From NCBI RefSeq assembly GCF_900177615.1, contig NZ_FXAP01000007.1, positions 62,001 through 126,000 on the forward strand: DNA of 64,000 bases, read 5' to 3'. The notes below the pieces were generated by a model that saw only the letters and a program-made list of their open reading frames with translations, searched no databases and was not told where the DNA came from. The position numbers and the translations under genes are program-made. The first letter of the stretch is position 1. Every line of letters starts with the position of its first letter. The stretch comes from Plantibacter flavus. GTDB lineage: Bacteria > Actinomycetota > Actinomycetes > Actinomycetales > Microbacteriaceae. Positions 8,875 to 52,021 of this stretch are shown here, piece by piece.

Positions 8875-11800
8875 CGGCCGGTCTCCCGTGCCTGCATCTC
8901 CTGCCGACGGATACCCCAGCCGAGCACCGCGGCCGCCAGCAACAGCGCGCCGGCGCCGCCGAACAGCCACAGCCTCGAGCTCGCGAGCGACAACGGGTCA
9001 CCGGTGACGGCTCCACCCATCGGCGGGATCGCAGGCAGCGACGCGTTCCAGCTGTCATTGTCGACGACCTCCGTGCCTGAGTAGGCGCCAACGGACGTGA
9101 CGGTTGCCGTGTCCGCGTGTGACGTGCCCGGCTCGACGCCGGTGAGCGTGCCCACCAGAAGCGCCTTCTGACCAGCGGCCAGGGTGACCAGCTCGCTGAT
9201 CGGACGAGCCAGGTAGCGCTGTCCAGCGATCTCCACCGTGACCGGCTTCGCCGGCTCTGATGATCCCTCGCCCGAAGAGGGTTCGGTCTCTGTGGTGTCA
9301 TCAGTGGTGACCGGGTCAGAGGCAGCGTCGGTTGCTTCTGGTACGGGGTCGAGCCAGTGGATGTCCTCCACCTTGCCGGTCATGCTCTCGTCCGTGAGGT
9401 CCTCGAAGCCCGTGATGGTGAGCCGCTCGTCGCCGGTGTTGGTGACGTCGAAGGCGATCTGGACACCGTTCTTCGCCTGGTCGTGTGTGAGCACCAGCGC
9501 GTTCTTGGACTCGTTCCGGTCGCCGGCGTCGCGGCCTTCGCTGAGCGTGTACTTCACGATCTCGAGCGCAGGGGCTGAGGCTGCCGCGGCGAACCAAGCA
9601 TCCTCGGCCTTCACCGTGGTCGCGGAGAAGATGGAGTCAGCAGTGACGACCACGGTGTCACCGTGGACCATGCCGGGCTCCATGCCCCGCAGCGTGCCCT
9701 TGCAGTCGACCGTCTGCTTGACCTTCAGCTCGGTGATCGCAGAGGGAAGCACCCACACGAGGCCGTCCTCGTCTGCTCCCACGGCTTCGTTTCCCTGGAT
9801 GATTCCGGGGATGCCTGGCGCTGCGTTGTCGGGGATCGCGCAGACGAGCCCTTCCACGTCGCCGTAGCGGCCGTCGTGAGTCATGTCGGCGAACTGGACG
9901 TTCGTGAGCGGAACATCGCCGGTGTTGCTGAAGCGGATGCCCACCTCAACACCGTGCTGCTTCGCCACAGCGTCTGCCGCCGCATCCTCCGGAAGCACTT
10001 CGTCGGCCAGCTGCTCCTTGGAGAGCGGGTACGCCTCGTCGACGTCGTTGCGATCGCCCTCCTGTTCACCCTCGTCGAGGGTGAACTTCTTCACCTCCAC
10101 GGACGGGTGCTCGATGGTGTTCGTCCAGACGGTGTTCGACTCGCGCAGGACGTCGTTGTAGCTCTCGGAGACCGTGTTCTCGACACGGTCGGACGGTGCG
10201 ATGCGCACCATCTTCGTGTAGACGGAGAACGCGGCCGCGAGGTCACTGCGGGTCTGGACGAGGTCGAGGAACTTCTGCGTCGCGGTGACGCTGAGCGTGT
10301 AGCTCGACTCATCGAAGGTCACGTCGAAGAGCCCCTTCAGGGCAGCCCCCTCACGTCCAGCGGAGTCCTGCAGCAGCTCCCCCGCTGCTGCGAGCAGGGT
10401 GGTGCCGTCATAGACGTCGGCGTTCGCGTAGATCGCCCAGACGCCGGTGTACTCATCGTGAGCTCGGTCGAAGGTGTCACTCATCGACCACTGGCTCGCT
10501 GCGTACGCCCGGTTGCCCGGAATCTCCGAGCTGTTCAGCCGGTAGTTGAACTCCGAGTACATCGGAATCTCGGTCGCGTCGACCGATGTCTCCTCGCCAT
10601 CGTCCGAGATGACGACGTCCTTGCTGGGGTCGATCTCCTTCAGGGGGTTGGAGACGATCTTCGTCGCCTTGTAGGTGTTCTGGATGTTCTGGCGCGCCTG
10701 GTTCTCGATGACGTACCCGTCCTGCTCCTTGGTCACCACGGTCGGAAGCGTGATCCAATACTGCTTCCCGAGCAGCGACTGGTCGATGATCGGGTGCTCG
10801 AGCGGGAGGATGGGCGCCTGGTCGTATGCGGCCAGGTCTGCAGGCTGCGGGTCGCCGGCGATCGTTCCGCCGAAGATGCTCGTCGTGTCGGTCTGCTTCG
10901 CGAAGACGTAGGCGACGCCGTCGATGACCTGCACGTTGAACTGCGCGGTGACGTCGGCTCCCGTTGTCTTCTCGGTGACGCGGATCGCCGCCGGGTCGAG
11001 CGTCAGGAAGTCCTCGTCGAAGTCGTCCACCATCCCGAGCTTGTGCACGTTGTAGGCGAGCTGATCGCGACCGGGGTTCGCGTCCAGCGTCAGGCGGTAG
11101 AGGATCACATCGCCCTTGACGACGGTCTTGCCGTCGATGTCGTTCTGCTCCGAGCTGAGGCTCTCCTTGTCAGGCGTCTGGGTCGGGATCTCCACGGTTG
11201 GGATCTCGGTCCCGGTCCGAGCGTCGTTGACGATCTGGAACGCCTGGTTCACGACGGTGCTGCCCTCGGCGATGTCCTTCTTGACGGTGCCCGTGAAGCG
11301 CAGCGTCAGCCACCCCTGCGTCAGCCACTCGGAGTTCGCTCCGGAAGTGCTGACGTTGTTCGCCAGCCACTCGTCGGTGAAGGTCGCGGTGAACATGTGC
11401 TTCTCCTCGTCCACCACCAGCGTGTACTGGCTCCGCGGGATCGGCTTCGGGTTCGCGGTATCGCGGGAGTCCCAGAACTCGATGGAGCCCTTGTCGGGCG
11501 TGAAGTACGGGTCGTACACGTCCTCGACCGCGAGGCTCTTGATACCGCGAGCGGTACCGGCGGGGACACGGAGGTCCACGCCGATGGAGTACTCGAGCTT
11601 CTGCCCAGGCCACACGGTCGAACCGTTGATGTCGCCGTGCGTGCTGTCGCCTGACTCATCGCCCGAGCCGAGGACCTGCTTGTTCGGGTTCGGCGTCCAG
11701 GTGTAGACGGGCGGTTCGTTGGTCTCGATGGTCTCGTTGTTCCAGACCTCTGAGCCGGCGTTGACCAGCGAGACGACCTCGCCGGCGGTGTCGAAGTCGG

Positions 11801-30908: not shown

Positions 30909-32207
30909 ATGATTGCGAACCCACAACCCCTGGCCGCCCGTATGCGCCCAACCACCCTTGATCAGATCATTGGCCAGGACCACCTGATATTCCCGGGTGC
31001 CCCGCTCATGAGACTCGCCTCTTACGCTTCCACAGCATCGACATCGGTGCTCCTCTGGGGGCCGCCCGGTACAGGGAAGACGACGATCGCTAGCGTGATC
31101 GCCCACGAGACGGGCAGCCGCTTCATCGAGCTGTCGGCGACCTCCGCCGGCGTTGCAGATGTGCGGAAGGCACTCGCTGCCGCCCAGACCGAACTCGACA
31201 TGAACGACAGGCGGTCGATCATTTTCCTCGACGAGATCCATCGATTCTCGAAGGCTCAGCAGGACGTCCTCCTGCCTGCCGTCGAGTCGGGCCTCATCAC
31301 ACTCATCGGGGCGACGACCGAGAACCCGAGCTTCTCGGTGAACTCGGCGCTGATGTCCCGTTCCGTGCTCCTGACCCTCCATCCGCTAGACGAAGCTGCC
31401 ATCGTCGCTGTCATGATGACGGCGCTCGATGCCCAAGCGGGTCTCAACGGCTGCGTCGGATTCGACATGGACGCCATTCAGTCCATGGCGCGTCACGCGA
31501 CAGGCGACGCGCGACAGGCGCTCACGCTCATGGAAACCGTCGCCGAAGCCGCGGTCGCTCAGAACCGGCAGAACGTTGACATAGACTTCGTGCTCACAGT
31601 CGCCCCGACCGCGATCTCCAGATACGACCGCGACGGTGATCAGCACTATGACGTGATCTCGGCCTTCATCAAGTCGATGCGCGGATCTGATCCCCAAGCG
31701 ACCCTGCACTGGCTCGCACGACTCATCGAGGCGGGCGAGGATCCTCGCTTCATCGCTCGACGCATCGTCGTCCACGCCAGCGAGGATGTCGGCATGGCGG
31801 ACCCTTCAGTTCTCCCGGTTGCCGTCGCAGCAGCCCAGGCGGTGCAGCTCATCGGCATGCCCGAGGCGCGTATCAATCTTGCCCAGGCGGCGCTTGCGGT
31901 GGCCATGGCGCCGAAGTCTCCGGCGGTGATGGGCATCGACATCGCTCTCGCGGATGTTCGCGCCGGCCGTACTGGCGAGGTGCCCATGCACCTTCGCGAC
32001 GCCCACTACCCAGGTGCCAAGGCCCTCGGCCACGGCAACGGATACCTCTTCCCGCACGACTTCCCACACGGACTCGTCAACCAGGCCTACCTCCCCAGTC
32101 GAGCCTCCAGCGCGCGGTACTACGAACCCACCATCAACGGCTTCGAGCAGACCATCACTGCCCGAATGGAGGCCATCGCGCGCATCACGGGAAATCAGAC
32201 CCCATGA
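30909..32207 (+). CDS. rarA: RarA/MgsA-type AAA+ recombination factor
   Basis: 432 residues, the usual full length. [17 protein letters not shown] opens the protein, Walker [10 protein letters not shown] at 51-59, [20 protein letters not shown] as Walker [19 protein letters not shown] as sensor 1 and SRS arginine finger region. The C-terminal tetramerisation part includes [34 protein letters not shown] and VGMADPSV. RarA acts at stalled forks with SSB. Finding a complete copy on an element that also encodes its polymerase suggests fork maintenance for the element. ATG 30909 after GAGGACCCGGC. Confidence 0.9.
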
Positions 32208-32282
32208 CCCCTCACAACCCCTCTGCCAACTCGTCAACGCCGACCTCGAATCTCCCGAGCGGCGGCCAGAACGGAGCTCCAC

Positions 32283-32705
32283 ATGACCAGCCAACCCATC
32301 GATGAGATCGCGCACCGCCGCCACGCGGCAGAGGAGGCGTTCCGAACAGCGAAGGCCCACGCGGACGAGCTGCGCATCGAGCACACCCGTCTAGTCCTCG
32401 GAGCCGCGTTCCCTCGACACACCGTCGCGATATTCGCTCGTCAGTGGGACGAGGACCAGGCATGCCTCGTCCAGCTCCTCACCGACCAGCCTGGGGTCAC
32501 CGACATCGACCTGATGAACGACCCGACAGACGGGATCCTCCTCAGCGAGCAACGACGCGCCATCGCCCTCGCCGATCAAGCGGTGATCCTCGTGGGCTCG
32601 GATGAGGATCTGTGGCGACTCATCGGAACGCCCGAGGTCGACCACAGCGACTGGTCGGAGTTCCCACTCGAGCTCCGGCACGTGGCCCACCAGGCGGCGG
32701 CATGA
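32283..32705 (+). CDS. Unknown helical protein
   Basis: 140 residues. Coiled N-terminus (HRRHAAEEAFRTAKAHADEL), then VAIFARQWDEDQACLVQLL and a C-terminal part with AIALADQAVILVGSDEDLWR. Overlaps the next gene by four bases (ATGA). Start ATG 32283 after CGGAG. No family recognised. Confidence 0.6.
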   Translation: MTSQPIDEIAHRRHAAEEAFRTAKAHADELRIEHTRLVLGAAFPRHTVAIFARQWDEDQACLVQLLTDQPGVTDIDLMNDPTDGILLSEQRRAIALADQAVILVGSDEDLWRLIGTPEVDHSDWSEFPLELRHVAHQAAA

Positions 32706-33400
32706 GCCACCCGGTCATCGCGCCACTGTCCGACGGCCGCCGGGTGCAGGTGCCCGGTGACTACGTCGATGAGTGGAAGACCGACGTGCGCGAGCTCAAC
32801 ACGCTCCTCGGTCTCGGCGACTGGTTCACGGATGGGGGCGAGAAGCGACAGGCCCTCATCGAGGGAGCGTCCAAGGATTGGGCGCGCTGTGACCATCCTC
32901 GGAACCCTGCGACGCAGGTACGCGTGACGAATCTGCGGCAAGCCGGCACCTTCGTCCCGAACGAACCACACGCCTCCGTCTGGATCTGTGACAAGCGAAG
33001 CTGCCTCCTGGACGCCATGGCCTGGGCGGAGCGCCAGACCAACGACACCGCGGTGTGGATCGACGCCGACGGTGCCGCCCATGAAGAATTGCCGGCGGTC
33101 ACGGCATCGAACGAGCCTGCCGTCACGCTCCCGCTGACCCCTGCGGCAGCGAGCAAACTGATGGACGAAGATGGTTTCGTCGACCTCGCAATCAGCATCG
33201 ACAAGGTCGAGTACTTCGATGCGCTCGGTGAGAGGGGTGAGCGCACCATCGAGGACTTCCTCCACGACCAGTCGTTCACTTTCGGGTTGCCGCACGACTG
33301 CAGCTCCGAACCCGTCGCCATCAAGGGCGAGGTCATCACCGTCAACTACACCACCAACATCCGGGAAGTGCTCCCGGAGGAGAGTGAGAGTCAGCAATGA
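32702..33400 (+). CDS. Unknown protein with CxH/Cx4C motifs
   Basis: 232 residues, ATG 32702 overlapping the previous stop. DWARCDHPRNPATQVRVTNL and VWICDKRSCLLDAMAWAERQ contain Cys/His that may bind metal. The C-terminal part has LTPAAASKLMDEDGFVDLAI and SFTFGLPHDCSSEPVAIKGE. Overlaps the next gene by four bases, so three genes (32283-33978) form a coupled set. Function unknown. Confidence 0.65.
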   Translation: MSHPVIAPLSDGRRVQVPGDYVDEWKTDVRELNTLLGLGDWFTDGGEKRQALIEGASKDWARCDHPRNPATQVRVTNLRQAGTFVPNEPHASVWICDKRSCLLDAMAWAERQTNDTAVWIDADGAAHEELPAVTASNEPAVTLPLTPAAASKLMDEDGFVDLAISIDKVEYFDALGERGERTIEDFLHDQSFTFGLPHDCSSEPVAIKGEVITVNYTTNIREVLPEESESQQ

Positions 33401-33978
33401 CCACAGCAGAGAACGCACCCGATGTCACGCCAGAGTCCGTTCCGAAGAAGGAGTTCACGGTCGCGGTCTTCGCTGACCCTCGGGCTGCGACGCACCTCTT
33501 GCAGGAGACGATCGCGAAGCTGATCGACACACGCGGCATCGAACTGGGGCTCATCGACCTCTCCTCGACGGCCGGTCGCTGCGTCGCCCAAGCATTCAAG
33601 GACGCCGGCGTCCCATACAAGTCACTGGAGTTCGGGCAAGAGTATCCCGTCGATGAGTCAATGGTGGACGGCGTACCCGCCGTTGACGTTGTGGCCGTGA
33701 GCTCGACGTGGGGTCACGCGTTTTCACGAGGTCAGCACTTGACGACCATCGACGAGCTTGGCGCCATCGATGCGAATGTCGTCCTCATCCCCGCCATGGT
33801 CGACATCGACGAGACGCACCTCGACTTCACACACGGCTCCCTCATGGGGGTCGTCTACACGCAGCTCGAGGAAGCGCGGCGACCTGTGCTCATCATCGAC
33901 ACCCCCGAGCGCGGACTGCGCATGGGTCCCGACGGGGCGTATCTGCGTGCCATCGTGCACGTGTCGGGCGCAAGCTAG
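33397..33978 (+). CDS. Unknown alpha/beta protein
   Basis: 193 residues. Alternating strands and helices: FTVAVFADPRAATHLLQETI, IELGLIDLSSTAGRCVAQAF, AVDVVAVSSTWGHAFSRGQH, ANVVLIPAMVDIDETHLDFT and VLIIDTPERGLRMGPDGAYL. The layout suggests a Rossmann-like or SLOG-like fold, but no nucleotide motif is certain. Last of three overlapping genes before the RecJ-like gene. Confidence 0.6.
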   Translation: MTTAENAPDVTPESVPKKEFTVAVFADPRAATHLLQETIAKLIDTRGIELGLIDLSSTAGRCVAQAFKDAGVPYKSLEFGQEYPVDESMVDGVPAVDVVAVSSTWGHAFSRGQHLTTIDELGAIDANVVLIPAMVDIDETHLDFTHGSLMGVVYTQLEEARRPVLIIDTPERGLRMGPDGAYLRAIVHVSGAS

Positions 33979-34091
33979 CTGGATCCAGCACCCGCGAGCC
34001 GTCGTATCTGTTCATAAACGAGTGAGTACGACGGCTTCGTCGGTCCTAGTCTTGGACCAGTCCCCACCCTGATCTTCCGCGAAGGAGCGAC

Positions 34092-36026
34092 ATGAACAAC
34101 CCCGGAATCACCAGCACCATCGCCGAACCGATCGACTTCGGCGTCTACCAGGACACATCCATCTTCAGCGTCCTCCGCCGAAAGAACGGCTGGACCGACG
34201 ACTACCTGCAGAAGATCAACGATCCGTTCCACGCGGAGCTCAAGGACGTCGAGCAGATGACGGCAGAGCTCGAACGCATCCGCCTCTCCGGGGAACAGCT
34301 CGTCGTTCTCCCCGACTTCGACATGGACGGTGTGACCTCGGGCGTTCTCGGGTGGGCTGGTCTCAACGAACTCGGCTTCAACGTCCACCTCTACGTGCCT
34401 GACTATCGACGTGGGCACGACATCTCCGTCGACGCCGTCCGCGAACTGCGAGACCAGTTCCCCCACGCCAGTGCGATCATCACCTGCGATGGCGGCATCA
34501 ACAGCAACGAGGGCATCGAGGAGGCCCGTCGCCTCGGTCTGCGCACGCTTGTCACCGATCACCACGTTGAGCTGCCGCCGGGAAGCGCCGCCGACTTCGC
34601 AGTGAACCCTGAGCGAATCGTCGAGGACTACGCACACCCCGGGATCTGCGGGGCCTACGTCCTGCACCAGGTGCTTGTCGCCTACGCGCAGCGCTATGCG
34701 CCCCACCACCTCGGGAGCATCTCGCTCCTGAAGCTGTTCGCGGGGATCGGGACAGTCTCCGACGTCATGCCGCTTTTCTTCGAGAATCGGCAGATGGTGC
34801 GCGACTCGCTGTCGTTGGCTCGCATGCTCCACGTATCAATCGCCGAAGACGACCAGAACACCAAGTACGACATCGAGAACAGCATCCTCATGATGCTGCT
34901 GCGGTCCAAGCCTCACCACCCGGCGTTCGTCTCGGCCTTCGAGGGGTTCGCGTTGATGATGCAGGCCTTCAAGGAGCACCGCAAGCCACTCCTGGATGAG
35001 AACGGTCTGCAGCTCGTCGACCCGTACGGCAAGCCGATGTTCGCCGCCGGCAAGCTGCGCAGCCTGGCCGACCTGAACGAGGAGTTCTACGCGTTCTACC
35101 TCGCACCGGCATTCAACGCCATTCGGCGAGTAGAGGGATCGATGCACGACGCCTTCGGGGTCTTCATGGCACCGACGACTGCTGAGAAGTACGAGCACGC
35201 GAAGAACGTCATCGACGCCAACGAACTGCGGAAGGAGCTGTCGGGCGAGTACCTGGAGAAGATCTGGACGGAGGACCAACCACTTGCCGACCAGGGGGTG
35301 TACTTCACAGATGCACCGTCCGGCATGTTGGGTCTCATCGCATCCCACATCATGCGCGAAACGGCTCGGCCAACGCTCGTCGTGCATCGGCCGAGCAACG
35401 CCTCTGATCCGATCAGCGGATCTGCACGCTCTCCGTTCTGGTTCCCGATCATCACAACGATGACGCCTCTCGGCTTCTTCGCCATCGGGCATGAGAGTGC
35501 ATGCGGTGTTCGCCTGGAAAACCTCGCACAGCTCGGCCGCTTCGCCGAGGCGCTGGAGGAGGAAGCCGGTGGCATCTACGCCAGAATGCTCCTGAGCGGC
35601 GAGCTCGAAGCGGCAGAGAGCGCTGCCCTCGTCCTCGGACCGCAGGTCGACTGCGACGCTGGGCTGACCGACGTCGATGAGCTCATGGACCTCGCAAAGG
35701 GTATCGACTCCCTGGCGCCGTACGGCCACGGATTCCCTCGGCCCGATGTCGAAATCGTGGTGGACCTCGCGCGTTGCTCGATCAAACTCCTGGGCTCAGA
35801 CGACCAACACCTGCGCATCGTCCTCCCGATCGGGATGAAGGTGCTCTGGTGGAACGCAGCGGATCGGTTGGAGGAACTGCAGCAGCTGGCCAAGAGTCAC
35901 GTCCCCGGTGAGAGCATCATCCGGTTGCACGTGCGCTTCTCCATCAACGTCTTCCGAGGCAACGAGTCCGTTCAAGCGGTCGTCGAGCGGATGATCGACG
36001 ACATGCGCACTGTCGACGATGAGTAG
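34092..36026 (+). CDS. DHH-family exonuclease, RecJ-like
   Basis: 644 residues; ATG 34092 with GAAGGAGCGAC. Motif I VVLPDFDMDGVTSG (Asp75, 77, 79), motif II IITCDGGI (Asp133), motif III LVTDHH (156-158) and a later Asp region (GIGTVSDVMPL) form the DHH metal site. A DHHA1-like end contains FFAIGHESACGVRLENLAQL. RecJ degrades 5' single-stranded ends in recombination and repair. The insert of about 100 residues between the domains (AFEGFALMMQAFKEHRKPLL) is longer than usual. Overlaps the CPBP protease gene by eight bases. Confidence 0.85.
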   Translation: MNNPGITSTIAEPIDFGVYQDTSIFSVLRRKNGWTDDYLQKINDPFHAELKDVEQMTAELERIRLSGEQLVVLPDFDMDGVTSGVLGWAGLNELGFNVHLYVPDYRRGHDISVDAVRELRDQFPHASAIITCDGGINSNEGIEEARRLGLRTLVTDHHVELPPGSAADFAVNPERIVEDYAHPGICGAYVLHQVLVAYAQRYAPHHLGSISLLKLFAGIGTVSDVMPLFFENRQMVRDSLSLARMLHVSIAEDDQNTKYDIENSILMMLLRSKPHHPAFVSAFEGFALMMQAFKEHRKPLLDENGLQLVDPYGKPMFAAGKLRSLADLNEEFYAFYLAPAFNAIRRVEGSMHDAFGVFMAPTTAEKYEHAKNVIDANELRKELSGEYLEKIWTEDQPLADQGVYFTDAPSGMLGLIASHIMRETARPTLVVHRPSNASDPISGSARSPFWFPIITTMTPLGFFAIGHESACGVRLENLAQLGRFAEALEEEAGGIYARMLLSGELEAAESAALVLGPQVDCDAGLTDVDELMDLAKGIDSLAPYGHGFPRPDVEIVVDLARCSIKLLGSDDQHLRIVLPIGMKVLWWNAADRLEELQQLAKSHVPGESIIRLHVRFSINVFRGNESVQAVVERMIDDMRTVDDE

Positions 36027-41018: not shown

Positions 41019-41499
41019 TGTACCCAACTCAACCCGTCGAAGCCGGGTACAGCCGGGTCGGTAGCGTGCGGACGAAGAGTGCCTGATCAAGGACGCAATC
41101 CGAGACCGCAACGCTGAACAGCGTAACCAAGTGCGTAACGCACCGATTCAACCAATTGTTCCTCCTGACCAGTGATTTTGATGATCTGTACCCGTTGTAC
41201 CCACGATTCTCGATTTTCGCTTTGCATGCACGTGTGTGCGCACATGCGCATGTGTGGGCTTCCTGGGAAAGGTGGGTACATGGGGTACAGGGTTACGTCT
41301 ATTCGTTGAAAAATATAGGAAGAAGGCCCCTACACCTGTACCCAACCTCATATATGGGCCGAAAAAGTTGGGTACACGCATTCGAGCTGAGGTCTCCCCA
41401 TTTGGCGAGCTGATCAGTGGTTTAGCACTCCCGGGGTTGTACCCAACCTCACTTCCCTACTCGGGTACAACAGCGCTCGATGGTCATCAGCACGTACCC
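41019..41499. repeat. Iteron array, GTACCC/GGGTAC (consensus TGTACCCAA), candidate origin
   Basis: Eleven copies: 41020, 41045, 41188, 41197, 41274, 41283, 41338, 41370, 41439, 41463 and 41494, in both orientations. TGTACCCAACCTCA occurs exactly twice (41337 and 41438) and TGTACCCAAC once more at 41019. The middle has AT-rich patches (41300-41325, 41350-41370). The gene-free stretch runs from 41001 to 41907; from 41500 to 41907 I see no further order except an AT-richer part at 41755-41850. Confidence 0.7.
41224..41256. repeat. Alternating purine-pyrimidine tract with overlapping palindromes
   Basis: Thirty-three bases alternate pyrimidine and purine without a break. TGTGCGCACA (41235-41244) and CACATGCGCATGTG (41241-41254) are perfect overlapping palindromes. 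Prone to Z-DNA or cruciform; lies inside the iteron array. Confidence 0.65.
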
Positions 41500-41907
41500 A
41501 GTCCACGCGAACTCGAGAGCAGACCTCGCGGTCAAAGCGGTGTCCGCCGACCAGCCTGGACGAGCGGAGCGGCCGCCTGCTGCTGAGGTTGGGCGAAGCT
41601 CCGTCTGCGACCGACCGGACACCATGCGGCCACATCAACCGCACTCCCCGACGCCAGTGAGTCGGACCCGATTGCAGCACTCGACTGGCATTCCGAGCAA
41701 CACGCAGCTTCGAAACCGTGGGCTTCTGCACCCGGTGCTTCGTCCGCTTTTTGCCGCATCTTGTGTTTTTGTACCTCCAGCCACATCTGACTTCAACCCG
41801 ATGGTATTCTGGTACCGATAAACGCGATTATCAGAACTATTCGGAGAAGACCCCTTTTCCGCGATTCTGAGGTCGAAATCGACGATTCGGGGTGCTGGTG
41901 TGAACGG

Positions 41908-42522
41908 ATGGATGAGCGAGAGCCTCATGCCGGCCTGCGTACGGACCACTCCTCCGCGCGTCCTGGGTCCGTTTCGCGTGAGCCGAGTGTCCTCGTGAGC
42001 GCCGGTAACTTCGACGGCCTGCGCTCGGCCGTCGTGGACGCTTCCGAAGCAGGGAGCTGGATGGAAGCCCGCAAGGAGTGGGAGATCATCGGGGCCGAGG
42101 AGAGTGTCGCGCTGAAGGGTGTGTGTCGGTGCGGGCAGGCACGCCTGCGCATGCTCTTCACCATCGGCAACCGACTCAACGGGCGGGAGATTGCGCCGGT
42201 GGGGAGCTCCTGTATCAACAACTTCCTCCGCAGTGACCTCAACGACGAAGTTGAGATCCTGAGCCGAATCTCGAAGCTCCGTCTGGCAATTCTGGACGGG
42301 ACACCCACCCAACTCGACGGGAAGTACTTCTCGAGAGTTCTGGTCAAGCACTTCGAAGCTGTCGGCGTCATCACGACGAAGGAGCACCAGTTCCTGCTCG
42401 ACATCTTCAACAAGTCTGCGTCCGGCAAGGGCGCTCTTTCCGTGAAGCAGCAGAGCTACCTCGACTCCCTCACGATCGGCAAAATCGGTCCCTACGTCCT
42501 CCATCACCCGAAGCTCACCTGA
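41908..42522 (+). CDS. CxCG-motif protein, first gene of the recombinase operon
   Basis: 204 residues from ATG 41908; a GTG at 41995 may be the true start, since family-like sequence begins only near AGSWMEARKEWEIIGAEES. Then GVCRCGQARLRMLFTIGNRL and NGREIAPVGSSCINNFLRSD: a C-x-C-G pair and a second Cys, a plausible small metal site. The second half is helical. Such C-x-C-G...N-x-x-NG...G-S-x-C-I proteins occur on plasmids and phages without known role. Its stop shares one base with the recombinase ATG. A link to the adjacent iterons, for example as initiator, is speculation. Confidence 0.6.
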   Translation: MDEREPHAGLRTDHSSARPGSVSREPSVLVSAGNFDGLRSAVVDASEAGSWMEARKEWEIIGAEESVALKGVCRCGQARLRMLFTIGNRLNGREIAPVGSSCINNFLRSDLNDEVEILSRISKLRLAILDGTPTQLDGKYFSRVLVKHFEAVGVITTKEHQFLLDIFNKSASGKGALSVKQQSYLDSLTIGKIGPYVLHHPKLT

Positions 42523-43670
42523 TGATCGATCCCACGAGCAACCAGCCGACGACGACCATCGTGGCCGCAGGCGCAACTGCGCCGTCCCTGCAGAGCGCAC
42601 CCATCCCAGATGACCTTCTCGCTGGCATTGCCGCCCACCAGGCGAACTCCAGCGCAGCAAACACGACTCGTGCCTACCGCAGCGACTGGGCCGCCTTCGT
42701 GCGATGGTGCGAGGTCCACGACCAGGTCGCTCTACCTGCCGACGGCACCACGGTTGCCGCGTACATCACAGACCGCGGCGCGCTCCTGAGCGCCTCGGGT
42801 GAATATGCGTACGCGCCGAGCACCATCACCCGCTGGGTCACATCGATCAACATGCAACACCTGCGCGCCGGCTACCCCGCGCCAGGTGCGCTGGCGGCCG
42901 TGAAGGACACGCTCTCCGGCATCCGTCGAGGTCACGTCCGTCCTCCCCGACGAATGGCGCCTCTCCTGCTGGCTGACCTGAAGAAGGTCCTCACCGCAAT
43001 CGACATCCACAGCTACCCGGACGGCATCATCGGCCACCGCGACGCAGCGCTCATGGTCATGGGTTTCGCCGGTGCGTTCCGCGGCAGCGAGATCGCCGGG
43101 CGAACCATCGGGGACGTGACGATCCACAGTGAAGATGGGTTGCACGTGCGGCTGCTCACCTCCAAGACAGATCAAGAGGGTCGTGGATCGGTGAAGGGTC
43201 TCCCCTACGGCGAGAACCCGCTCACTTGTCCCCCCTGTGCATTCCTCCGCTGGATCCGTGTCCTCGATGTGGCAGAGAACGCGTCCCGCAGCGACATGAT
43301 GACGCTCCTGCGCACTTCGGACTCTGCGTCACACCTGTGTCATGGGCCGACACCCGAACTCGACCGTCTCGACCCGAAGGCCGGCCTCTTCCGACCAGTC
43401 CGGCGCGGCGGCCACATCGGAGCCAAGTCCATCAGCGGGGACGTCGTCAACATCGTCGTGAAGCGACGCCTCGGGGCCGCCGGAATGAACGCGAAGCGCT
43501 TCGGCGGACACTCGCTCAGAGCAGGCTTCGTCACCCAGGCGCTCCGCGCCGGAGCCTCGCCGCAGGAAGTAATGCGCCAGACTGACCACAAGAGCGCTTC
43601 GACGGTAGAGATCTACCGCCGCGAGCACGATCCGTTGCGGCAGAACGCTGTAACGAGGATAGGGCTGTAG
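42522..43670 (+). CDS. Tyrosine recombinase (site-specific, XerC/D-type fold)
   Basis: 382 residues. N-terminal SAM-like core-binding domain (ANTTRAYRSDWAAFVRWCEV), then the catalytic domain with all key residues: Arg187 (GAFRGSEIAG), Lys215 (TSKTDQEGRG), His330 and Arg333 (GGHSLRAGF), His356 (QTDHKSAST) and Tyr365 (VEIYRRE). A C-P-P-C insert (PLTCPPCAFLRWIRVLD) is shared with its decayed relative at 45046. Likely roles are dimer resolution, integration or movement of the element. It starts on the previous stop and is followed after 14 bases by the HA-repeat gene. Confidence 0.9.
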   Translation: MIDPTSNQPTTTIVAAGATAPSLQSAPIPDDLLAGIAAHQANSSAANTTRAYRSDWAAFVRWCEVHDQVALPADGTTVAAYITDRGALLSASGEYAYAPSTITRWVTSINMQHLRAGYPAPGALAAVKDTLSGIRRGHVRPPRRMAPLLLADLKKVLTAIDIHSYPDGIIGHRDAALMVMGFAGAFRGSEIAGRTIGDVTIHSEDGLHVRLLTSKTDQEGRGSVKGLPYGENPLTCPPCAFLRWIRVLDVAENASRSDMMTLLRTSDSASHLCHGPTPELDRLDPKAGLFRPVRRGGHIGAKSISGDVVNIVVKRRLGAAGMNAKRFGGHSLRAGFVTQALRAGASPQEVMRQTDHKSASTVEIYRREHDPLRQNAVTRIGL

Positions 43671-43684
43671 AAGATGAGGATGAC

Positions 43685-45049
43685 ATGTCCCCGATGACCG
43701 ATGACGACTACCGCCAGCGAGCAATCGCGGTGCGCCAGATCGTTGAGACCACCGGGCGTATCCCGCGACACTACGCGAACCACGTGCCTGAGTCCGAAGG
43801 CAAACTGCGCGCGTGGTGGGACGGACAGATGACACGCCTTCGCAACGGGCGCATGCCAGCAGAAGTCGCGGAGATTCTCGATGACGCCTTCCCCGGGTGG
43901 CTGGAGAACAGCAACCTGAAGAAGGAGCACAAGCTCGTCATCCTCCACCCGCTCCAGTTCGACGACGCCGTCAAGCAACTTGCAAAGAAGCTCGAGCAGG
44001 ACGGCTCCTACCCGATCTGGATCACTTCTCTGGGGCAGTGGCTCCGCGAACAGCGCACTCGTGACACCGCCGGCGAGCTCCCAGAGGACGAACGCGCCAC
44101 CCTCGACTCCGTGGCGCCGGATTGGCGAGCACCTGGTGTGAGGAAGTCCGCTGCTGCGGCGAAGGAGTGGCGCGAGCGCACGGAAGAAATCAGTGCCTTC
44201 ATCAACGAGTTCGGCCACCTACCTCGCGCATCCCGCAGAGCAAGCACCGAAGAACGCAAGCTCAATGCCTGGCTCAGTCGCACGATCCAAGGGGAGATCG
44301 ATGTCATCGCGAGCGGCGATCTCGACCGCTTCGCACCAGGGTGGCGCGACTACAAGATCGTGGTCGATTCGGGCATTGATCTAGAGTTCGCGGACTTCAC
44401 GACAGAGCTCGCGACCTTCGTCACAGCCTTCGGTCGCCTACCCGAACCAGACGGAGAGGCTCTCCCTGACGATGGGGAGGCAGAGCTCCACCGCGAGCTC
44501 AACAGCTACCGCCTCCGTCGACGGGACCTCGCCCTCGACGCGATCCAGATCGAACAGCTCGATGCGATCGACCCGGGCTGGGCTGTACCAGCGCAGCAAC
44601 TCCCGGAAACAGATGCATCCTTCCGTCGCCGGCTCGAGCGCGTGCGAGAGCTGTACAAGCGCAACTACTCCTGGCCGAAGACGCCTCACTCCGACTACCT
44701 CGTTGCAGACGCCGCACAGTTCATCCTCGACCAACAGCTGAACTTCCGCGCCGGAACACTGGGTAAGACCCGCCTCGGACTCCTGGACTCGGTCTTACCA
44801 GGGTGGCTCACCGCGTCCGTTGTGTACGGCGTCCGCAGCGTCGCCGGACAGGACTACGTCGACGTCGCCATCGAAGCCGTTCAGACCGCGTTCCCGAAGC
44901 TGGCATCGACCGATCCTCTCGGGTTCGCGCGTCGTGTCGCGATCCTCACGAAGGAGGGCGTCATCGAGTCAGAAGAAGACGACACCGTGGTCGATTCTTC
45001 GAAGACGAAGAAGAAGGACTCCGACGAGGGGGATGACCCGAAGGAATGA
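43685..45049 (+). CDS. Five-repeat helicase-associated (HA) domain protein
   Basis: 454 residues. Five copies of the HA pattern (G-x-x-P at the start, R-x-x-x-x-x-L-x-x-W in the middle, LD-x-x-x-PGW at the end): GRIPRHY...LDDAFPGW, GSYPIW...LDSVAPDW, GHLPRAS...RFAPGW, GRLPEPD...LDAIDPGW, YSWPKTP...LDSVLPGW. HA repeats usually sit beside helicases and bind nucleic acid; here no helicase is fused. The tail is acidic and Lys-rich. Placed between two recombinase-type genes and overlapping the second by four bases, it may act as DNA-binding accessory of the recombinase. Confidence 0.8.
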   Translation: MSPMTDDDYRQRAIAVRQIVETTGRIPRHYANHVPESEGKLRAWWDGQMTRLRNGRMPAEVAEILDDAFPGWLENSNLKKEHKLVILHPLQFDDAVKQLAKKLEQDGSYPIWITSLGQWLREQRTRDTAGELPEDERATLDSVAPDWRAPGVRKSAAAAKEWRERTEEISAFINEFGHLPRASRRASTEERKLNAWLSRTIQGEIDVIASGDLDRFAPGWRDYKIVVDSGIDLEFADFTTELATFVTAFGRLPEPDGEALPDDGEAELHRELNSYRLRRRDLALDAIQIEQLDAIDPGWAVPAQQLPETDASFRRRLERVRELYKRNYSWPKTPHSDYLVADAAQFILDQQLNFRAGTLGKTRLGLLDSVLPGWLTASVVYGVRSVAGQDYVDVAIEAVQTAFPKLASTDPLGFARRVAILTKEGVIESEEDDTVVDSSKTKKKDSDEGDDPKE

Positions 45050-45951
45050 CACAGCTGACCTCGAGAGAGGCGCGCGACTGGGAGCTTTTCGTCGACTGGT
45101 GCGTGTCGATGTCCCTCGCGCCTCTCCCGACGTCCGGCGCGACTACTGAAGCCTTCCTCGAGGCATTCCCCGCGGCGGCCGCCACCCAGATCCGGCGCCG
45201 GCGCGTGATCCACAAGCAGAACTCTGCCGTCGGTGTGGCCTCAGAAGCTCCCGTGTCCTCAGCGCTGAGGCACGGCGACGGTTGGGCGTCTGTGTCACGA
45301 GCGCTCGCCCAGGTCCCGAAGTACCACTACCCCACCGGATTCCAAGAGGCTGTTCGAGGACGCCGCGATGGATGGCTCATCGTGCTCGTCGGTGTGCTCG
45401 GTATGAACCGCCAGCAAGCCGTCGACGTCACGACGGACGACGTGACGGTGTCCCCTCACCTGTCCATCTGCGGCCAAGCTGTCGAGCGTTCCGAATCCGC
45501 GGACGAATGTGCCGCGTGCGCTGTGACCCGTTGGCTGCGCGTCGTCGGTGACCTGACGCCATGGTTCAACAAGGCTGCGATTACGAGGGTGGTCTCCCCC
45601 ATCGGCGTCGAACAGTCGTCACACGACTGCGGCGTGGATGTGGACAGGGCCTGGAAGGATGCCACGACGCTCCTTCCCTCCATCAACCGTCACGGTCACC
45701 CCGTCGACAGCCCGCTGAGCCTTCGGTCCATCAGCGCGACGATGGCTCGCCGACAACAGTTCGGGGAAGTCGCCACCATCCAGGAGTACACCGTGCGAAC
45801 AGGCGGACGCTTCGCGAACGCCACCTCGAGCGAACTCGCCGCCGCACAGGACGACGTCGATGCTCGGCTCGATGAGATGAGTGCCTGGCTGAAGGCCCTA
45901 CTCGCTGAAACCACGGAAACCCTGGATCACCTCACGGTGATCGGTTTGTAG
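45046..45951 (+). CDS. Tyrosine-recombinase-like protein lacking catalytic residues
   Basis: 301 residues. The N-terminus (DWELFVDWCVSMSLAPLP) matches the recombinase core-binding start. VLVGVLGMNRQQAVDVTTDD aligns with MGFAGAFRGSEIAGRTIGD of the active enzyme and keeps the Arg. ADECAACAVTRWLRVVGD matches its C-P-P-C insert. LSLRSISATMARR matches HSLRAGFVTQALR but the His is Leu. No catalytic Tyr or final His is found near the end. It should bind DNA or its partner but not cut. Probably a dedicated regulator or architectural subunit. Confidence 0.75.
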   Translation: MTQLTSREARDWELFVDWCVSMSLAPLPTSGATTEAFLEAFPAAAATQIRRRRVIHKQNSAVGVASEAPVSSALRHGDGWASVSRALAQVPKYHYPTGFQEAVRGRRDGWLIVLVGVLGMNRQQAVDVTTDDVTVSPHLSICGQAVERSESADECAACAVTRWLRVVGDLTPWFNKAAITRVVSPIGVEQSSHDCGVDVDRAWKDATTLLPSINRHGHPVDSPLSLRSISATMARRQQFGEVATIQEYTVRTGGRFANATSSELAAAQDDVDARLDEMSAWLKALLAETTETLDHLTVIGL

Positions 45952-47028: not shown

Positions 47029-48687
47029 ATGGCCACCACGCAGAATGAAATCACCATCCAGGCCACCCGGACCTACCTCGCCTCGATCAAGTCAAATCCC
47101 TTGCCGTCGCCGGCAGCCATCGAGGAGTCTCTCCTGGCGAAAACGAACGCGCTCTTCGCGCTCGAGAACAGCGGGCGAACGGGATCGCACAGAATCAACC
47201 TGCTCAAGCGCCTCACGTTCTCCCAGGTCGCTGAGATCCTGATCTCCCTGCACCGCGTTGTTCGTATCGCCCCCTCGGGTAAGAACACCGATCGGGACCA
47301 TGATCTGCTCGCGATCTATGTCGACGACGGAGAGGACGAGGGAATCTACGCAACGAGCGAGGACCAGATTCGCAGCATCGCGCGTCTGTACAACCGGGAG
47401 CTCACCATCAACGAGTCCCGAGAGGTCATGACCGTTCTTCGTGAGGAAGCCCCCAGGGTCTCACGCTGCGCCGACCGCGACATGATCGCCGTCAACAACG
47501 GGGTCTTCGACTACCGGAAGAAGGAACTGAAGCCGTTCGATCCCAGCATGGTGTTCCTCTCCAAGGCCCGCGTCGACTACGTCCAGGGGGCGCTCTCCCC
47601 GGGGATCCTGACACCCGACGGGGAAACCTGGGAGGTCGAGAGCTGGATGCACACGCTCACGGACGACCCGGAAATCATCGTGCTGCTCTGGGAGATCCTC
47701 GGGGCCATCGTTCGGCCGCACGTGCGCTGGAACAAGAGCGCCTGGTTCTTCTCCGAGCTCGGCAACAACGGCAAGGGAACACTCGTGGAGCTCATGAGGA
47801 ACCTGGTCGGAAGCGCCAGCTATGCATCGATCCCGATCAGCGACTTCGGCAAGGAGTTCCTGCTGGAGCCGCTGACTCGGGCAAGCGCGATCCTCGTCGA
47901 CGAGAACGACGTCGGAACTTTCATCGACCGCGCCGCAAACCTGAAGGCGATCATCACCAACGACGTCATCTCCATCAACCGCAAGCACAAGACTCCCATC
48001 GCCTATCAGTTCTGGGGGTTCATGGTCCAATGCCTGAACGAGTTCCCGCGCATCAAGGACAAGTCCGAGTCGTTCTATCGGCGGCAGCTGTTTGTGCCGT
48101 TCACGAAGAGCTTCACCGGCGCTGAGAAGCGCTACATCAAGGACGACTACGTCGGGCGCGACGACGTGCTGCAGTACGTGCTCCACCGCGTGCTGCACAT
48201 GAACTACTACACGCTCTCGGAGCCCGAGGCAACGAAAAACGTCCTCGAGGAGTACAAGGGCTTCAACGACCCGGTGCGCTCGTTCTGGACCGAGTTCGAG
48301 GAAGCATTCGTCTGGGACCTCGTCCCCTTCGCCTACCTCTACGACCTGTACAAGGCATGGTTCGCGAAGACGAACCCGTCCGGCTCACCGATCGGACGCA
48401 TCGTGTTCGTGAAGGATCTGCTGGCGATCGTGCACAAGTCGACGCTCTGGCATTGCGCCGATCAGCGCCAGCAGGTGCGACCGGGGAAGATGATGGATAG
48501 CCCTGAACCCCTCACCGCACGCTTCGACCTGAAAGACTGGATGAACCAGGCGTACACGGGCAGTGATCCCTTGAGGAAGTCCACCGTGCACCCGCTGTCA
48601 TCGAGCTATCGAGGCCTGCAGCGGACCAACACCCCGCCGGCAGCGGCGGGCGCAGTGTCGGCACCTGGAGGCGGATCCACGACGTAG
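47029..48687 (+). CDS. SF3 replicative helicase (D5/P4 phage-plasmid type)
   Basis: 552 residues; ATG 47029 after GGAAAGGTG. The N-terminal 170 residues are helical and divergent; then AVNNGVFDYRKKELKPFDPS, typical of the D5 N-terminal domain. Walker A ELGNNGKGTL (about 243-252), Walker B ASAILVDEND (about 285-294) and QFWGFMVQCLNEFPRIKDKS with YRRQLFVPF form the helicase core. No primase motif is present, in keeping with a separate primase-like gene at 59002. It should unwind the origin and lead the fork. The Pro/Ala/Gly tail is probably flexible. Confidence 0.85.
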   Translation: MATTQNEITIQATRTYLASIKSNPLPSPAAIEESLLAKTNALFALENSGRTGSHRINLLKRLTFSQVAEILISLHRVVRIAPSGKNTDRDHDLLAIYVDDGEDEGIYATSEDQIRSIARLYNRELTINESREVMTVLREEAPRVSRCADRDMIAVNNGVFDYRKKELKPFDPSMVFLSKARVDYVQGALSPGILTPDGETWEVESWMHTLTDDPEIIVLLWEILGAIVRPHVRWNKSAWFFSELGNNGKGTLVELMRNLVGSASYASIPISDFGKEFLLEPLTRASAILVDENDVGTFIDRAANLKAIITNDVISINRKHKTPIAYQFWGFMVQCLNEFPRIKDKSESFYRRQLFVPFTKSFTGAEKRYIKDDYVGRDDVLQYVLHRVLHMNYYTLSEPEATKNVLEEYKGFNDPVRSFWTEFEEAFVWDLVPFAYLYDLYKAWFAKTNPSGSPIGRIVFVKDLLAIVHKSTLWHCADQRQQVRPGKMMDSPEPLTARFDLKDWMNQAYTGSDPLRKSTVHPLSSSYRGLQRTNTPPAAAGAVSAPGGGSTT

Positions 48688-48700
48688 CAACCAACCCCAA

Positions 48701-48730
48701 CCGGGCGCACTGAGAGATCGGTGCGCCCGG
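48701..48730 (+). terminator. Hairpin terminator or attenuator
   Basis: CCGGGCGCAC (48701-48710) pairs with GTGCGCCCGG (48721-48730). Between helicase and polymerase genes; may reduce read-through. Confidence 0.65.
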
Positions 48731-48793
48731 CACAGGCGTGCATCCGCATGCCCGAGACCCACACCCCAAGACACCAGAGGAAGGAGCCGGCAG

Positions 48794-51700
48794 ATGTCGC
48801 AATCCACGCAGGCACCCCACCCGATCAAGCAGGCCGTAACCGCCAAGACGGCGAACTTCCTCTACTACGACATCGAGTCACTGAACAACGTCTTCTCGCT
48901 GTGCGCCTACTCGCCCCGCACCAACTCGGTGGAGGTGTTCTTCCTGGTCGATCCCGTGGAGGGTTCGTCGCTGACCGAGGAGCTCCGCGCGCATCCGTTC
49001 AGCACCAAGCTCGCCGCCGAGAGGATCATCGCCGAAAACCCGGCCTTCCAGGTAGTCGATGATCTGAAGCGCACGATCAACTTCCACGACCTCTCGACCT
49101 GGCTGGGCAACTACGCGCTCGCGCAGCTGTTCGGAGTGAGCGACGCAGACTCCGTCAACGACCCCGATTCGAAGTCGCAATTCACCAACCATCTCCGCCC
49201 GGTTTGCGACACCGACCCCGGTTACGATCCATTCCTGCGGCACCCCTATTTCGTCGGCTACAACTCGTTCAGCTACGACACGACGATGCTTGCGGCGTAC
49301 TTCTTGGAGGCGCTCAGCCACCTGCCCAAGGCGCTCGCGCAGAAGCAGGCCGCCGACTACGGGTTCCAGCCGCCGAAGGCCAGCATCATGCGAACCCACA
49401 ACGACGAGCTGTTCAAGGACACGTACATCTCGTACATGCCGCGCTACCTCGTCGAGGGTTCCGTCGCCCAGGGCAAGCGCTGGAACTCCATTCCGAACAA
49501 GATCCGCCAGGCGATGATCAACTCGGGTCGCCACATCGACGCCGCGCGCCTCAACGAGGCGCAGCAGTTCGTCGGCCTCAAGCGTCTGCTCGGCGGTCTC
49601 GGGAGACAGATCATGGAGAGCGACAAGCTCGGTGCACACAACGCCACGGTGGAGACGGTGCGGGATCTCTACGACCTGCTCGCCTACAACGTGTCTGACG
49701 TCGTGGGACTCGCGAAACTGTTCCAGCACCCCACGTTCTCGTCGGCGTTCGACCTCAAGAAGGGTCTGATCGACGAGTACCCGGAGACGATCTACGAGCG
49801 ATCGAAGTTCTCCTCCGCGCCGAACATCAGCCCGAAGGCTGTGAGGAAGGGGCGCCTGACGCCGGATTCGTCGTCAGCGAAGCTCGTGGGGCTGATCCTG
49901 AGCCCGTATGGCCACCTGAACGACATCCGGGGCGTGAGCTTCATGTACCCCTCCGAGATGGTCGCCAAGGAGCGTGGCATCGAGCGGGTGAACGTCCTCG
50001 ACGAGTGCCGAACGTTCTTCTACGACGGTGTCAGCGATCCTGCGGCACGAGCCCAGTTCGACCTCGTCTACGCGTACTACAAGTCGATCGAGGGGAAGAA
50101 CTTCAACGCCTCGGAGGAGTACGCCGACACCTATCCTGACGGCGATCGCGCGCATGTGCTCTCGGAGATCCCGAAGGCGCCCAACAACCTGCCGTACTTC
50201 CACGCAGACGGTTCGCCGTCGACCTGCTTCGCCACCTTCTCCACCGGTGGCATTCACGGCGCCGAGGCGGACTGGGGAGCCTACGGCGAGGAGCTCCTCG
50301 CCTGGTCGGAGAACGAGCAGCTGCTCGCCGACGTGAAGGCTGCATACCCCGACCCGCTCGTGGTGCGCACCACCAAGGGTGGTGTGACGCTGCCGAATGG
50401 TCGAGTGGTGCAACACGGTGAGGTCCTGACAGCCAAGGCGACCATCAAGGCGCTCACCGCTCGCTCCGAAGCCATTGCGGCGCTCGGTGCGAACCCGTCC
50501 CCGGAGCAGCTCGACGCCATCGAGCAGCAGTACGTGGGCGCCGGATACAAGCCCGCGAAGCCGCGACCCGAGCTCTTCGAGCAGAAGGTCGATGGCTCAA
50601 CGAAGCTGAAGCCGAAGTATGCGTTCACCTCGATGGCCCGCGCCATCCACGAGGACTTCACCAGCTACTACCCGAACATGCTCCGCAACATGAGCGCGTT
50701 CTACAACGCGGACCTCGGTGAGGACCGCTACGCGAAGATCCTCGCCGACAAGGACCGCTATGGGCGAGAGATGAAGATACCGGGACTGAGCCCTGAGGAG
50801 AAGACCCACCTGGGTGTGCTCCGCAATGGGACCAAGCTCATCCTGAACTCGGCATCCGGTGCAGGTGACACCACGCACACGACCCCGATCCGGGTCAACA
50901 ACGCCATCATCTCGATGCGCATCATCGGTCAACTCTTCTCCTGGCGTATTGGCCAGGCGCAGACCTTGGCCGGCGCCCGGATCATCTCCACGAATACCGA
51001 CGGTCTCTACTCGGTCCTCGACGAGGAGACCAACAACCGTGTGCTCGCCGAGCAGCAGGCGCTGATCAACGTGGAGATCGAGCCCGAGCCACTGATCATC
51101 GTGAGCAAGGACTCGAACAACCGTCTGGAGCTCGAGGTCCCCGAGGACGACTCGACGCCGGTGTGGGAAGCGAAGATCGTCTCCGCATCGGGTGGAACAC
51201 TCGCGTGCCACCAGGAGCCACAGCCCACGAAGAGCCTCGCCCACCCGGCGGTGCTCGACTGGGCGCTGGCAAGGTACCTCCGCTACGCGGCCGGCGCATA
51301 CGTGCCGAGCTGGAGGACCGACCCGATCAGCCTGGCCGAGCCACTGGACCGCCGTCTCGGCAAGCAACTCCTGCTCGAGGCGGCACGTGACAGCGACCCT
51401 GTACTGGCAGCCCGCCTGTTCCAGAACGTCGTTGTCGCCTCCAACGGCAAGGTGACGATCCCGTTCGCGTCGGACCCCGTCGACCCCTCGAGCGACGACC
51501 AGGACACCGTCGTGAACCCACGGACCATCCAGCACTACAACCGGATGTTCATCGTGCACGAGGGCAAGCCCGGGGCGGTATCGCTTCGGGCCGCTGGTGC
51601 CTGGGTCGTGAATGCTGCGTCCAAGATCCGTCGCAGCCGCGACGGTGTGGCGCCGGTGCACACCGATCCCGTGGCAATGGGGATCCTGAAGGCGAATGGC

Positions 51701-52021
51701 TTCGCCAGGGACCGACTAGACGCCCAGACGAACAACCGAGTGTTGCTGCCCGAGGATCAGGACGTCGCCGTACGCAAGATCACGGGTATTGACCCGGCGT
51801 GGAACATCCTCATCGAGAACGGCGATCTGCTGTGCATGGGTGAGGACAGGCTCCGGGACCTGCTCGGGTGCCTGGACCTGGATGTCTACCTCGACATGCT
51901 GGCCAGCACCTACGAGAAGAACTGGAAGAACAGCGCGGCTGACGCCGGCGTGGCGGGCGACGTGCTCGCTGAGTCGTCGTCTCAAGACGACGAGCTCGCA
52001 GAAGACGGCATCGCCGCATAG
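48794..52021 (+). CDS. Family B DNA polymerase
   Basis: 1075 residues; ATG 48794 after GGAAGGAG. 3'-5' exonuclease motifs: I FLYYDIESL (Asp26, Glu28), II VGYNSFSYD (about 154-162), III LLAYNVSDVVG (about 294-304). Polymerase motif A HEDFTSYYPNM (about 617-627), motif B LRNGTKLILNSASG (about 675-688), motif C ISTNTDGLYSVL (about 730-741). Motif C has N-T-D where most family B enzymes have D-T-D. The core is the small plasmid/phage type, but the protein is long, with a 300-residue insert before motif A (residues 310-610). No terminal-protein domain seen. Confidence 0.88.
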   Translation: MSQSTQAPHPIKQAVTAKTANFLYYDIESLNNVFSLCAYSPRTNSVEVFFLVDPVEGSSLTEELRAHPFSTKLAAERIIAENPAFQVVDDLKRTINFHDLSTWLGNYALAQLFGVSDADSVNDPDSKSQFTNHLRPVCDTDPGYDPFLRHPYFVGYNSFSYDTTMLAAYFLEALSHLPKALAQKQAADYGFQPPKASIMRTHNDELFKDTYISYMPRYLVEGSVAQGKRWNSIPNKIRQAMINSGRHIDAARLNEAQQFVGLKRLLGGLGRQIMESDKLGAHNATVETVRDLYDLLAYNVSDVVGLAKLFQHPTFSSAFDLKKGLIDEYPETIYERSKFSSAPNISPKAVRKGRLTPDSSSAKLVGLILSPYGHLNDIRGVSFMYPSEMVAKERGIERVNVLDECRTFFYDGVSDPAARAQFDLVYAYYKSIEGKNFNASEEYADTYPDGDRAHVLSEIPKAPNNLPYFHADGSPSTCFATFSTGGIHGAEADWGAYGEELLAWSENEQLLADVKAAYPDPLVVRTTKGGVTLPNGRVVQHGEVLTAKATIKALTARSEAIAALGANPSPEQLDAIEQQYVGAGYKPAKPRPELFEQKVDGSTKLKPKYAFTSMARAIHEDFTSYYPNMLRNMSAFYNADLGEDRYAKILADKDRYGREMKIPGLSPEEKTHLGVLRNGTKLILNSASGAGDTTHTTPIRVNNAIISMRIIGQLFSWRIGQAQTLAGARIISTNTDGLYSVLDEETNNRVLAEQQALINVEIEPEPLIIVSKDSNNRLELEVPEDDSTPVWEAKIVSASGGTLACHQEPQPTKSLAHPAVLDWALARYLRYAAGAYVPSWRTDPISLAEPLDRRLGKQLLLEAARDSDPVLAARLFQNVVVASNGKVTIPFASDPVDPSSDDQDTVVNPRTIQHYNRMFIVHEGKPGAVSLRAAGAWVVNAASKIRRSRDGVAPVHTDPVAMGILKANGFARDRLDAQTNNRVLLPEDQDVAVRKITGIDPAWNILIENGDLLCMGEDRLRDLLGCLDLDVYLDMLASTYEKNWKNSAADAGVAGDVLAESSSQDDELAEDGIAA

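Follow-up and report, generated by a model that had tools for sequence, protein, structure and literature searches.

In a 64,000-nucleotide stretch of the Plantibacter flavus genome (assembly GCF_900177615.1, contig NZ_FXAP01000007.1, here C6, positions 62,001–126,000 of the forward strand), which we call the window and to which coordinates refer unless another record is named, a four-gene operon encodes a complete Cre/Xer-like tyrosine recombinase of 382 aa, INT (42522–43670, plus strand), and a catalytically dead paralogue of 301 aa, PART (45046–45951, plus strand). We lean towards the view that INT and PART together make up a module for the resolution of plasmid multimers or cointegrates, in which an active recombinase would work with a dead regulatory twin. 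The module itself, its conservation, the loss of catalytic residues from PART, the selection on PART and the single copy of a dif-like site beside the operon can be read directly from the sequence.

The catalytic residues of INT are Arg187, Lys215, His330, Arg333, His356 and Tyr365. In an alignment of 31 INT rows the catalytic R, K, H330, R333 and Y are present throughout, and position 356 is H in 28 rows and W in 3. The initial annotation had taken INT for a complete tyrosine recombinase, and the R-K-H-R-(H/W)-Y set found in all 31 rows bears this out. INT matches PF00589 in Pfam, shows general integrase similarity in PHROG (phrog_1) and has Cre as its best solved relative by sequence (E-value 2.4e-14). 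Every INT row also carries a C-C-H-C motif (C236-C239-H271-C273), possibly a metal site inside the catalytic domain, which is complete in 21 of 29 PART rows; the eight PART rows without it form one tree group containing Rhodococcus, Gordonia, Prescottella and three further loci. The structure model of INT is poor, with a predicted local distance difference test score (pLDDT) of 60.2, and was left unused.

PART is composed of a core-binding domain and the first half of a catalytic domain, followed by a non-homologous C-terminus. No Pfam, PHROG or NCBIfam model matches PART or 14 PART relatives at a useful E-value. In a profile comparison with hhalign, a PART profile (14 proteins) aligns to an INT profile (9 proteins) with 99.5% probability and an E-value of 1e-22 over INT residues 47–329, a range that includes the core-binding domain of tyrosine recombinases. 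The homology stops one residue short of the box II histidine (His330), and MAFFT columns beyond INT residue 329 are not trusted for PART. The part of INT that holds H-x-x-R, H/W and Y has no counterpart in PART, and the lysine stretch is absent too: in the joint alignment Lys, box II His, H/W and Tyr each occur in 0 of 29 PART rows. The fourth gene product had been annotated as a recombinase relative without the catalytic Tyr and His, and both parts of this description hold, the protein aligning with the INT profile and not with a different fold. It had also been said to keep the catalytic Arg, which is doubtful. An alignment of the 14 PARTs alone has one invariant Arg (R121), but in joint alignments it sits one residue after Arg187: the Arg187 column holds Arg in 0/29 PART rows and the next column in 19/29. 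We rejected a retained Arg I, since the residue is displaced by one column and the Rhodococcus/Gordonia group does not have it. The tail of PART differs from that of INT and is probably helical, since the model, at low confidence (overall pLDDT 64.5), has a helix at residues 261–300 with local scores of 60–85. Cre is the top match of PART profile positions 14–91, albeit a weak one (E-value 0.027). When the PART profile is run against other genomes, INT and its relatives score best after PART, which points to derivation of PART from an INT-family gene.

INT lies directly upstream of PART, on the same strand, in 26 of 31 distinct PART loci, the window included. A recount confirmed both figures. 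They refer to loci opened or returned by searches, a minority of 44 plasmid records among them, and profile scoring of PART took at most six candidates per genome. Starting from INT, 12 loci with at least 42% identity were found in 299 family genomes, and PART adjoins in 10 of them, the exceptions being L096 and L097. At 21 INT-PART junctions outside the window, 13 show overlaps of 4 or 1 nt, five have gaps of 4–13 nt and three are without a close start. Judged by gene order and junctions, INT and PART thus form one conserved and mostly translationally coupled module. The joint can be occupied: in the window by the gene for a protein of helicase-associated (HA) repeats, whose stop is overlapped by the PART start, and in Leifsonia (L005/L023) by an opposite-strand gene. 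Five Rhodococcus-type INT loci were opened, and PART is present in four and missing in L112. In Curtobacterium luteum (L029, 5947–8232) the PART frame continues into a 1050-codon open reading frame (ORF) with another C-terminal part. The loci with PART alone are L031 (interrupted N-terminus), L100, L102 (a fragment), L105 and L111. At L105 PART is truncated and lies on a single-contig genome of 3.8 Mb; at L111, on a Pseudonocardia alni plasmid (4007–5882), PART overlaps an upstream aminoglycoside phosphotransferase family gene by 8 bp, and INT was not found in the stretch.

Maintenance regions and transposons both employ resolution systems, and INT-PART is found next to genes of both kinds. 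On the plasmids of L017, L018 and L019, ParA and RepA genes lie upstream of the pair. On the Rhodococcus/Gordonia plasmids L021, L107 and L110, genes of Tn7/Mu type (TnsA, Mu-type transposase, TniB or TniQ) adjoin it, and on the Prescottella plasmid NZ_KX443407 (L209) transposition genes lie about 22 kb from it, with a weak site match beside them. In both L021 and L209 the weak dif-like match stands beside the transposition genes and not beside INT. A phage origin was rejected: among 188 viral-contig loci with INT relatives, the best 80 contain no PART-type ORF, although some of these stretches end right after INT (for example L113); none of the 27 candidate stretches that a PART pattern picked out in viral contigs was confirmed, and no phage record matches PART.

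The proposed INT substrate is a dif-like core site, GGTACCGATAA-ACGCGA-TTATCAGAACT, an 11-6-11 inverted repeat at 41811–41838 (plus strand) that ends 69 bp before the operon. A pattern built from this site, allowing up to two mismatches, has a single match in the 4.3-Mb genome. In four of five aligned Curtobacterium loci a related site, GTTCYGRGAA-N6-TTATCGGAAC, is found upstream of INT at varying distance from the gene. We counted sites in the window and 50 further loci with an INT score of at least 60 bits, over roughly 900 bp in front of the conserved core of INT (1060 bp in the window, only 329–425 bp in the paired loci L006, L008 and L011), leaving out duplicates (the same genome twice) and the broken L014. 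A strict rule finds a site in 12/51 INT loci (5/25 with PART, 7/26 without), with 0.085 expected; a relaxed rule finds one in 19/51 (10/25 with PART, 9/26 without), with 0.26 expected. In the window and 18 further loci, then, a site with inverted arms and an unvarying 6-bp spacer lies close to the recombinase gene. Both rules were written after the Curtobacterium sites had been seen, and shuffles as well as coding-sequence, downstream, motif and spacer controls serve as guards. The relaxed rule finds 0/51 sites inside the INT coding sequence, 0/32 in downstream stretches at spacer 6 and none with five scrambled inner motifs; in a scan of spacers 0–14, spacer 6 gives 19 loci and every other spacer 0 or 1. 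The arms vary by INT lineage and stay inverted repeats, as in CTCTTGATAA...TTCTCAAGAG of L057 and L059, a pattern that suits INT as the protein recognizing them better than an invariable host protein.

C6 is 173,885 bp long and has 95 identical bases at both ends, which makes it a circle of about 174 kb. This plasmid thus has one site of the window type on a circular replicon, and the picture is mixed in 12 other whole plasmid records, where a simpler pattern gives one match in six, two in one and none in five, some of the matches being weak. Plasmid p1 of Curtobacterium flaccumfaciens has its single match some 25 kb away from INT. When as many as three mismatches are allowed, a related pattern matches five of nine whole genomes, four of them once and one three times. 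In Curtobacterium sp. VKM Ac-1393 (L231, L232, L228), two of three sites stand beside similar small-gene pairs, with no INT in the surrounding stretch examined.

From these data we infer that INT acts on the dif-like site, that PART binds INT and that resolution is the outcome. INT would bind both 11-bp arms of the site upstream of the operon, and its Tyr365 would cut at the edges of the 6-bp spacer. It would recombine two direct copies of the site, which are present only in a plasmid dimer or cointegrate, and so restore monomers. PART would be an INT-family gene that lost box II and the tyrosine, gained a different tail and kept the DNA-binding half. It would be made next to INT, by coupled translation in most relatives. 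Its most likely role is that of a regulatory or architectural partner that sits with INT on the DNA without cutting it and confines the reaction to resolution or to a single direction. The first gene of the operon, which encodes a CxCG protein, and the HA gene would be passengers. Since sites of this type also occur with INTs that lack PART, the dead twin was probably a later addition to an already working recombinase. PART may hold one arm, bridge synapses or block the back reaction. A bolder version, which we consider possible but clearly less probable than the general one, is a heteromeric recombinase whose core site has one arm occupied by the never-cutting PART, so that INT either makes only one pair of strand exchanges or needs a PART-built synapse; it would be a one-way resolution switch that co-evolved with INT across actinobacterial plasmids. 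The initial annotation had suggested a resolution or integration machine with an HA subunit; resolution was a good guess, given an INT/PART module beside iteron-like repeats and a recombination-type site, whereas the HA subunit did not stand.

Several observations weigh against resolution by INT and PART. In 32 of the 51 INT loci there is no site in the tested stretch, including the close relatives Glaciihabitans L017, Leifsonia L023 and Agromyces L027, and among the seven plasmid records with a match only W07 has it directly upstream of INT. The backward control pattern matched once in each of two of the nine genomes, and the three sites of Curtobacterium sp. VKM Ac-1393 lie on three contigs. 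PART is without INT at 5/31 loci, and conversely is not needed for the site, which is found by the relaxed rule at 9/26 INT loci with no PART in the stretch. Arm symmetry averages 8.1 of 11 matches in paired loci and 8.9 in unpaired ones (p 0.16); arm asymmetry as a PART half-site was rejected, the difference being not significant. A fold comparison of the PART model puts Cre on top with no significant E-value (best 0.15). In addition, the plasmid has a second dif-like site outside the window, CCGATAA-TGCACC-TTATGACAG (C6:32933–32954, minus strand), between two ORFs; it is close to host-type dif (3 mismatches) and to the dif-type match on the chromosome (C10:1254448), and host XerCD might resolve dimers.

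The same data can be read, though we judge this unlikely, as an integrase module that inserts the plasmid, or else moves a segment, at attachment sites, with PART as directionality factor. The phrog_1 similarity of INT and the three sites on three contigs in VKM Ac-1393 agree with such a role, but the whole P. flavus genome has a single site match, the contig is a free circle and no pair of attachment sites is seen. Where Tn7-type genes are present, they could presumably provide integration themselves. Rather less probable still is use of the site by host XerC/XerD, with INT and PART doing other work such as DNA binding or regulation at the origin. The arms have CCGATAA in common with the actinobacterial dif consensus, and the chromosome has a dif-type match (C10:1254448) with one mismatch to that consensus. 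The right arm is TTATCAGAACT here and TTATGTCAA in the chromosomal match, however, and the site recurs upstream of INT in 19/51 loci, some with lineage-specific arms unlike dif. INT moreover retains its full catalytic set.

Returning to INT and PART as a resolution module, the history of PART argues that it is maintained. The dN/dS ratio (nonsynonymous to synonymous substitution rates) among Curtobacterium copies is 0.23–0.31 for PART and 0.09–0.16 for INT, from 10 pairs of 5 sequences each, the five PARTs including a truncated one (L028) and an interrupted one (L031) with dS >1 in all four of its pairs. PART is under purifying selection, and its earlier description as decayed was wrong as history. 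In a tree of 30 INT and 28 PART rows, without an outgroup, one branch divides INT from PART with a Shimodaira–Hasegawa-like approximate likelihood ratio test (SH-aLRT) support of 100, and similar sub-groups appear on both sides. The PART group spans plasmids of Microbacteriaceae, Micrococcaceae, Pseudonocardiaceae, Nocardiaceae and Gordoniaceae. Distances in INT and PART are correlated (Mantel r 0.84, 0/5000 permutations, 23 pairs), which speaks for joint inheritance and not for contact, since linked genes are expected to correlate. The Frondihabitans L018 INT (split frame) and the Curtobacterium L028 PART (truncated) were left out of both the tree and the Mantel test.

That PART is a functionless recombinase copy decaying while it is carried along with INT is accordingly very improbable. 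Interrupted or shortened copies do exist at L011, L014, L028, L031, L102 and L105, and PART has about 1.9 to 2.6 times the dN of INT when the same Curtobacterium pairs are compared. A decaying copy is nevertheless at odds with the dN/dS of 0.23–0.31, by which PART as a pseudogene was rejected, with one group of rows across plasmids of five actinobacterial families and with the coupled junctions with INT.

The remaining two genes of the operon lie outside the conserved module. The CxCG protein (204 aa, 41908–42522, plus strand) belongs to an independent plasmid-borne family, and the HA-repeat protein (454 aa, 43685–45049, plus strand) has five repeats. An ORF check confirmed the four genes as annotated, with a 1-base overlap between CxCG and INT, a 14-base gap between INT and HA and a 4-base overlap between HA and PART. 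Among the loci opened, the order CxCG-INT-HA-PART occurs in the window only. The HA protein matches the Pfam HA family (PF03457, E-value 8.7e-14), with five P[GD]W repeat ends and no helicase family matched, in agreement with its annotation as five helicase-associated repeats without a helicase. Among the 26 paired loci, its gene separates INT from PART in one. Homologues on four other plasmids have helicase, methyltransferase, Fic or PPE genes as neighbours, with no INT or PART ORF in these four opened loci, and an HA match occurs in 5 of 299 family genomes, the own genome included. A second HA-repeat ORF is found on the same plasmid outside the window (C6:136105–137928). The closest relatives of the CxCG protein are on plasmids of Curtobacterium, Arthrobacter, Lactobacillus and Entomospira (E-values 1e-29 to 3e-24), and in one opened case the neighbour genes are unrelated. 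The initial annotation had asked whether the HA gene and the fourth gene occur independently of the recombinase: the HA gene does, whereas PART mostly does not (26/31 loci with INT). Its proposal of an architectural HA subunit is not supported by a gene that stands in the joint at a single locus and elsewhere apart from INT and PART. One machine of all four products is the least probable reading, the compact, overlapping operon and HA repeats, which are thought to bind nucleic acid, speaking for it, but the 1/26 occurrence of HA in the joint and the existence of both families away from INT-PART leading us to reject the HA and CxCG genes as machine parts.

The operon had been placed beside iterons, and an iteron-like cluster at 41019–41469 does adjoin it, beside the dif-like site. 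The cluster contains 10 of the window's 13 TGTACCC/GGGTACA heptamers, which occur there in both orientations, and is a probable origin region. Upstream of it, at 30909–36026, are plasmid-borne genes for a RarA/MgsA-type ATPase and a RecJ-like DHH protein. Downstream of the operon, at 47029–52021, the plasmid carries phage-like replication genes: one for a D5-type primase/helicase (552 aa) and, after it, one for a 1075-aa protein that partially matches a phage DNA polymerase (phrog_1252, E-value 1.3e-21). A 1607-aa protein of surface-protein type, with antigen I/II C2 and Antigen_C domains, is encoded at 8874–13694 on the minus strand.

Cre resolves P1 plasmid dimers. The system described here resembles Cre/loxP of phage P1 in that INT is nearest to Cre by sequence among solved structures, in the single site on a plasmid-like replicon and in the proposed dimer resolution, and it differs in its spacer, which is 6 bp compared to 8 bp in lox, and in its co-encoded dead paralogue. 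With XerCD/dif and plasmid dif-like sites it shares the 11-6-11 layout and the inner bases ATAA-N6-TTAT, but XerC and XerD are both catalytic, whereas here the second protein is without a catalytic box and the two arms of the site are nearly symmetric. PART also has a weak fold match to Ndc10 of the yeast kinetochore (E-value 0.51), a non-catalytic relative of tyrosine recombinases that is, unlike PART, eukaryotic and has no known co-encoded recombinase.

Dead recombinase-fold partners and recombinases with helpers are already known. Tfp, from strand-biased circularizing elements, and GinC, from GInts, are described in PMC10214605 as having the tyrosine-recombinase fold but not its catalytic motif and as sharing their operons with active recombinases; the same paper states that each of the four GInt genes has proved essential. 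PMC5385486 is at odds with this in stating that GinC misses only the first Arg of the motif. The shared feature is a dead recombinase-fold protein encoded with an active recombinase. Those operons, as described in PMC10214605, hold two active recombinases and a small further protein on integrative elements of proteobacteria, whereas the window and the opened loci have one active recombinase. Tfp sequences below 550 aa are counted as truncated in that paper, whereas PART has about 300 aa; it is by such descriptions, not by sequences, that PART is set apart from GinC and Tfp. TnpS/TnpT of the Tn4651 subgroup of Tn3 transposons likewise pair a tyrosine recombinase with a helper, both acting at a resolution site (PMC7157771). 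Recombinase-in-trio (RIT) elements, which the operon had been said to recall, also have several recombinase genes per operon, but these are three, all with a catalytic tyrosine in the archetype (according to PMC10214605), and the likeness fails for two recombinase-type genes, one of which is dead.

We found no described counterpart of the INT-PART pair in the open-access literature. What sets the pair apart is that it lies on plasmids of Actinobacteria, at a dif-like site, and joins just two genes, for an active recombinase and a dead paralogue of that same enzyme. The role of dead recombinase-fold proteins appears to be unsettled for strand-biased elements and GInts, and INT-PART offers a simpler case, in which a single active recombinase has a single dead paralogue and a 28-bp candidate site. 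INT relatives without PART are natural controls, which makes the role of the dead subunit directly testable in a candidate resolution system for large actinobacterial plasmids.

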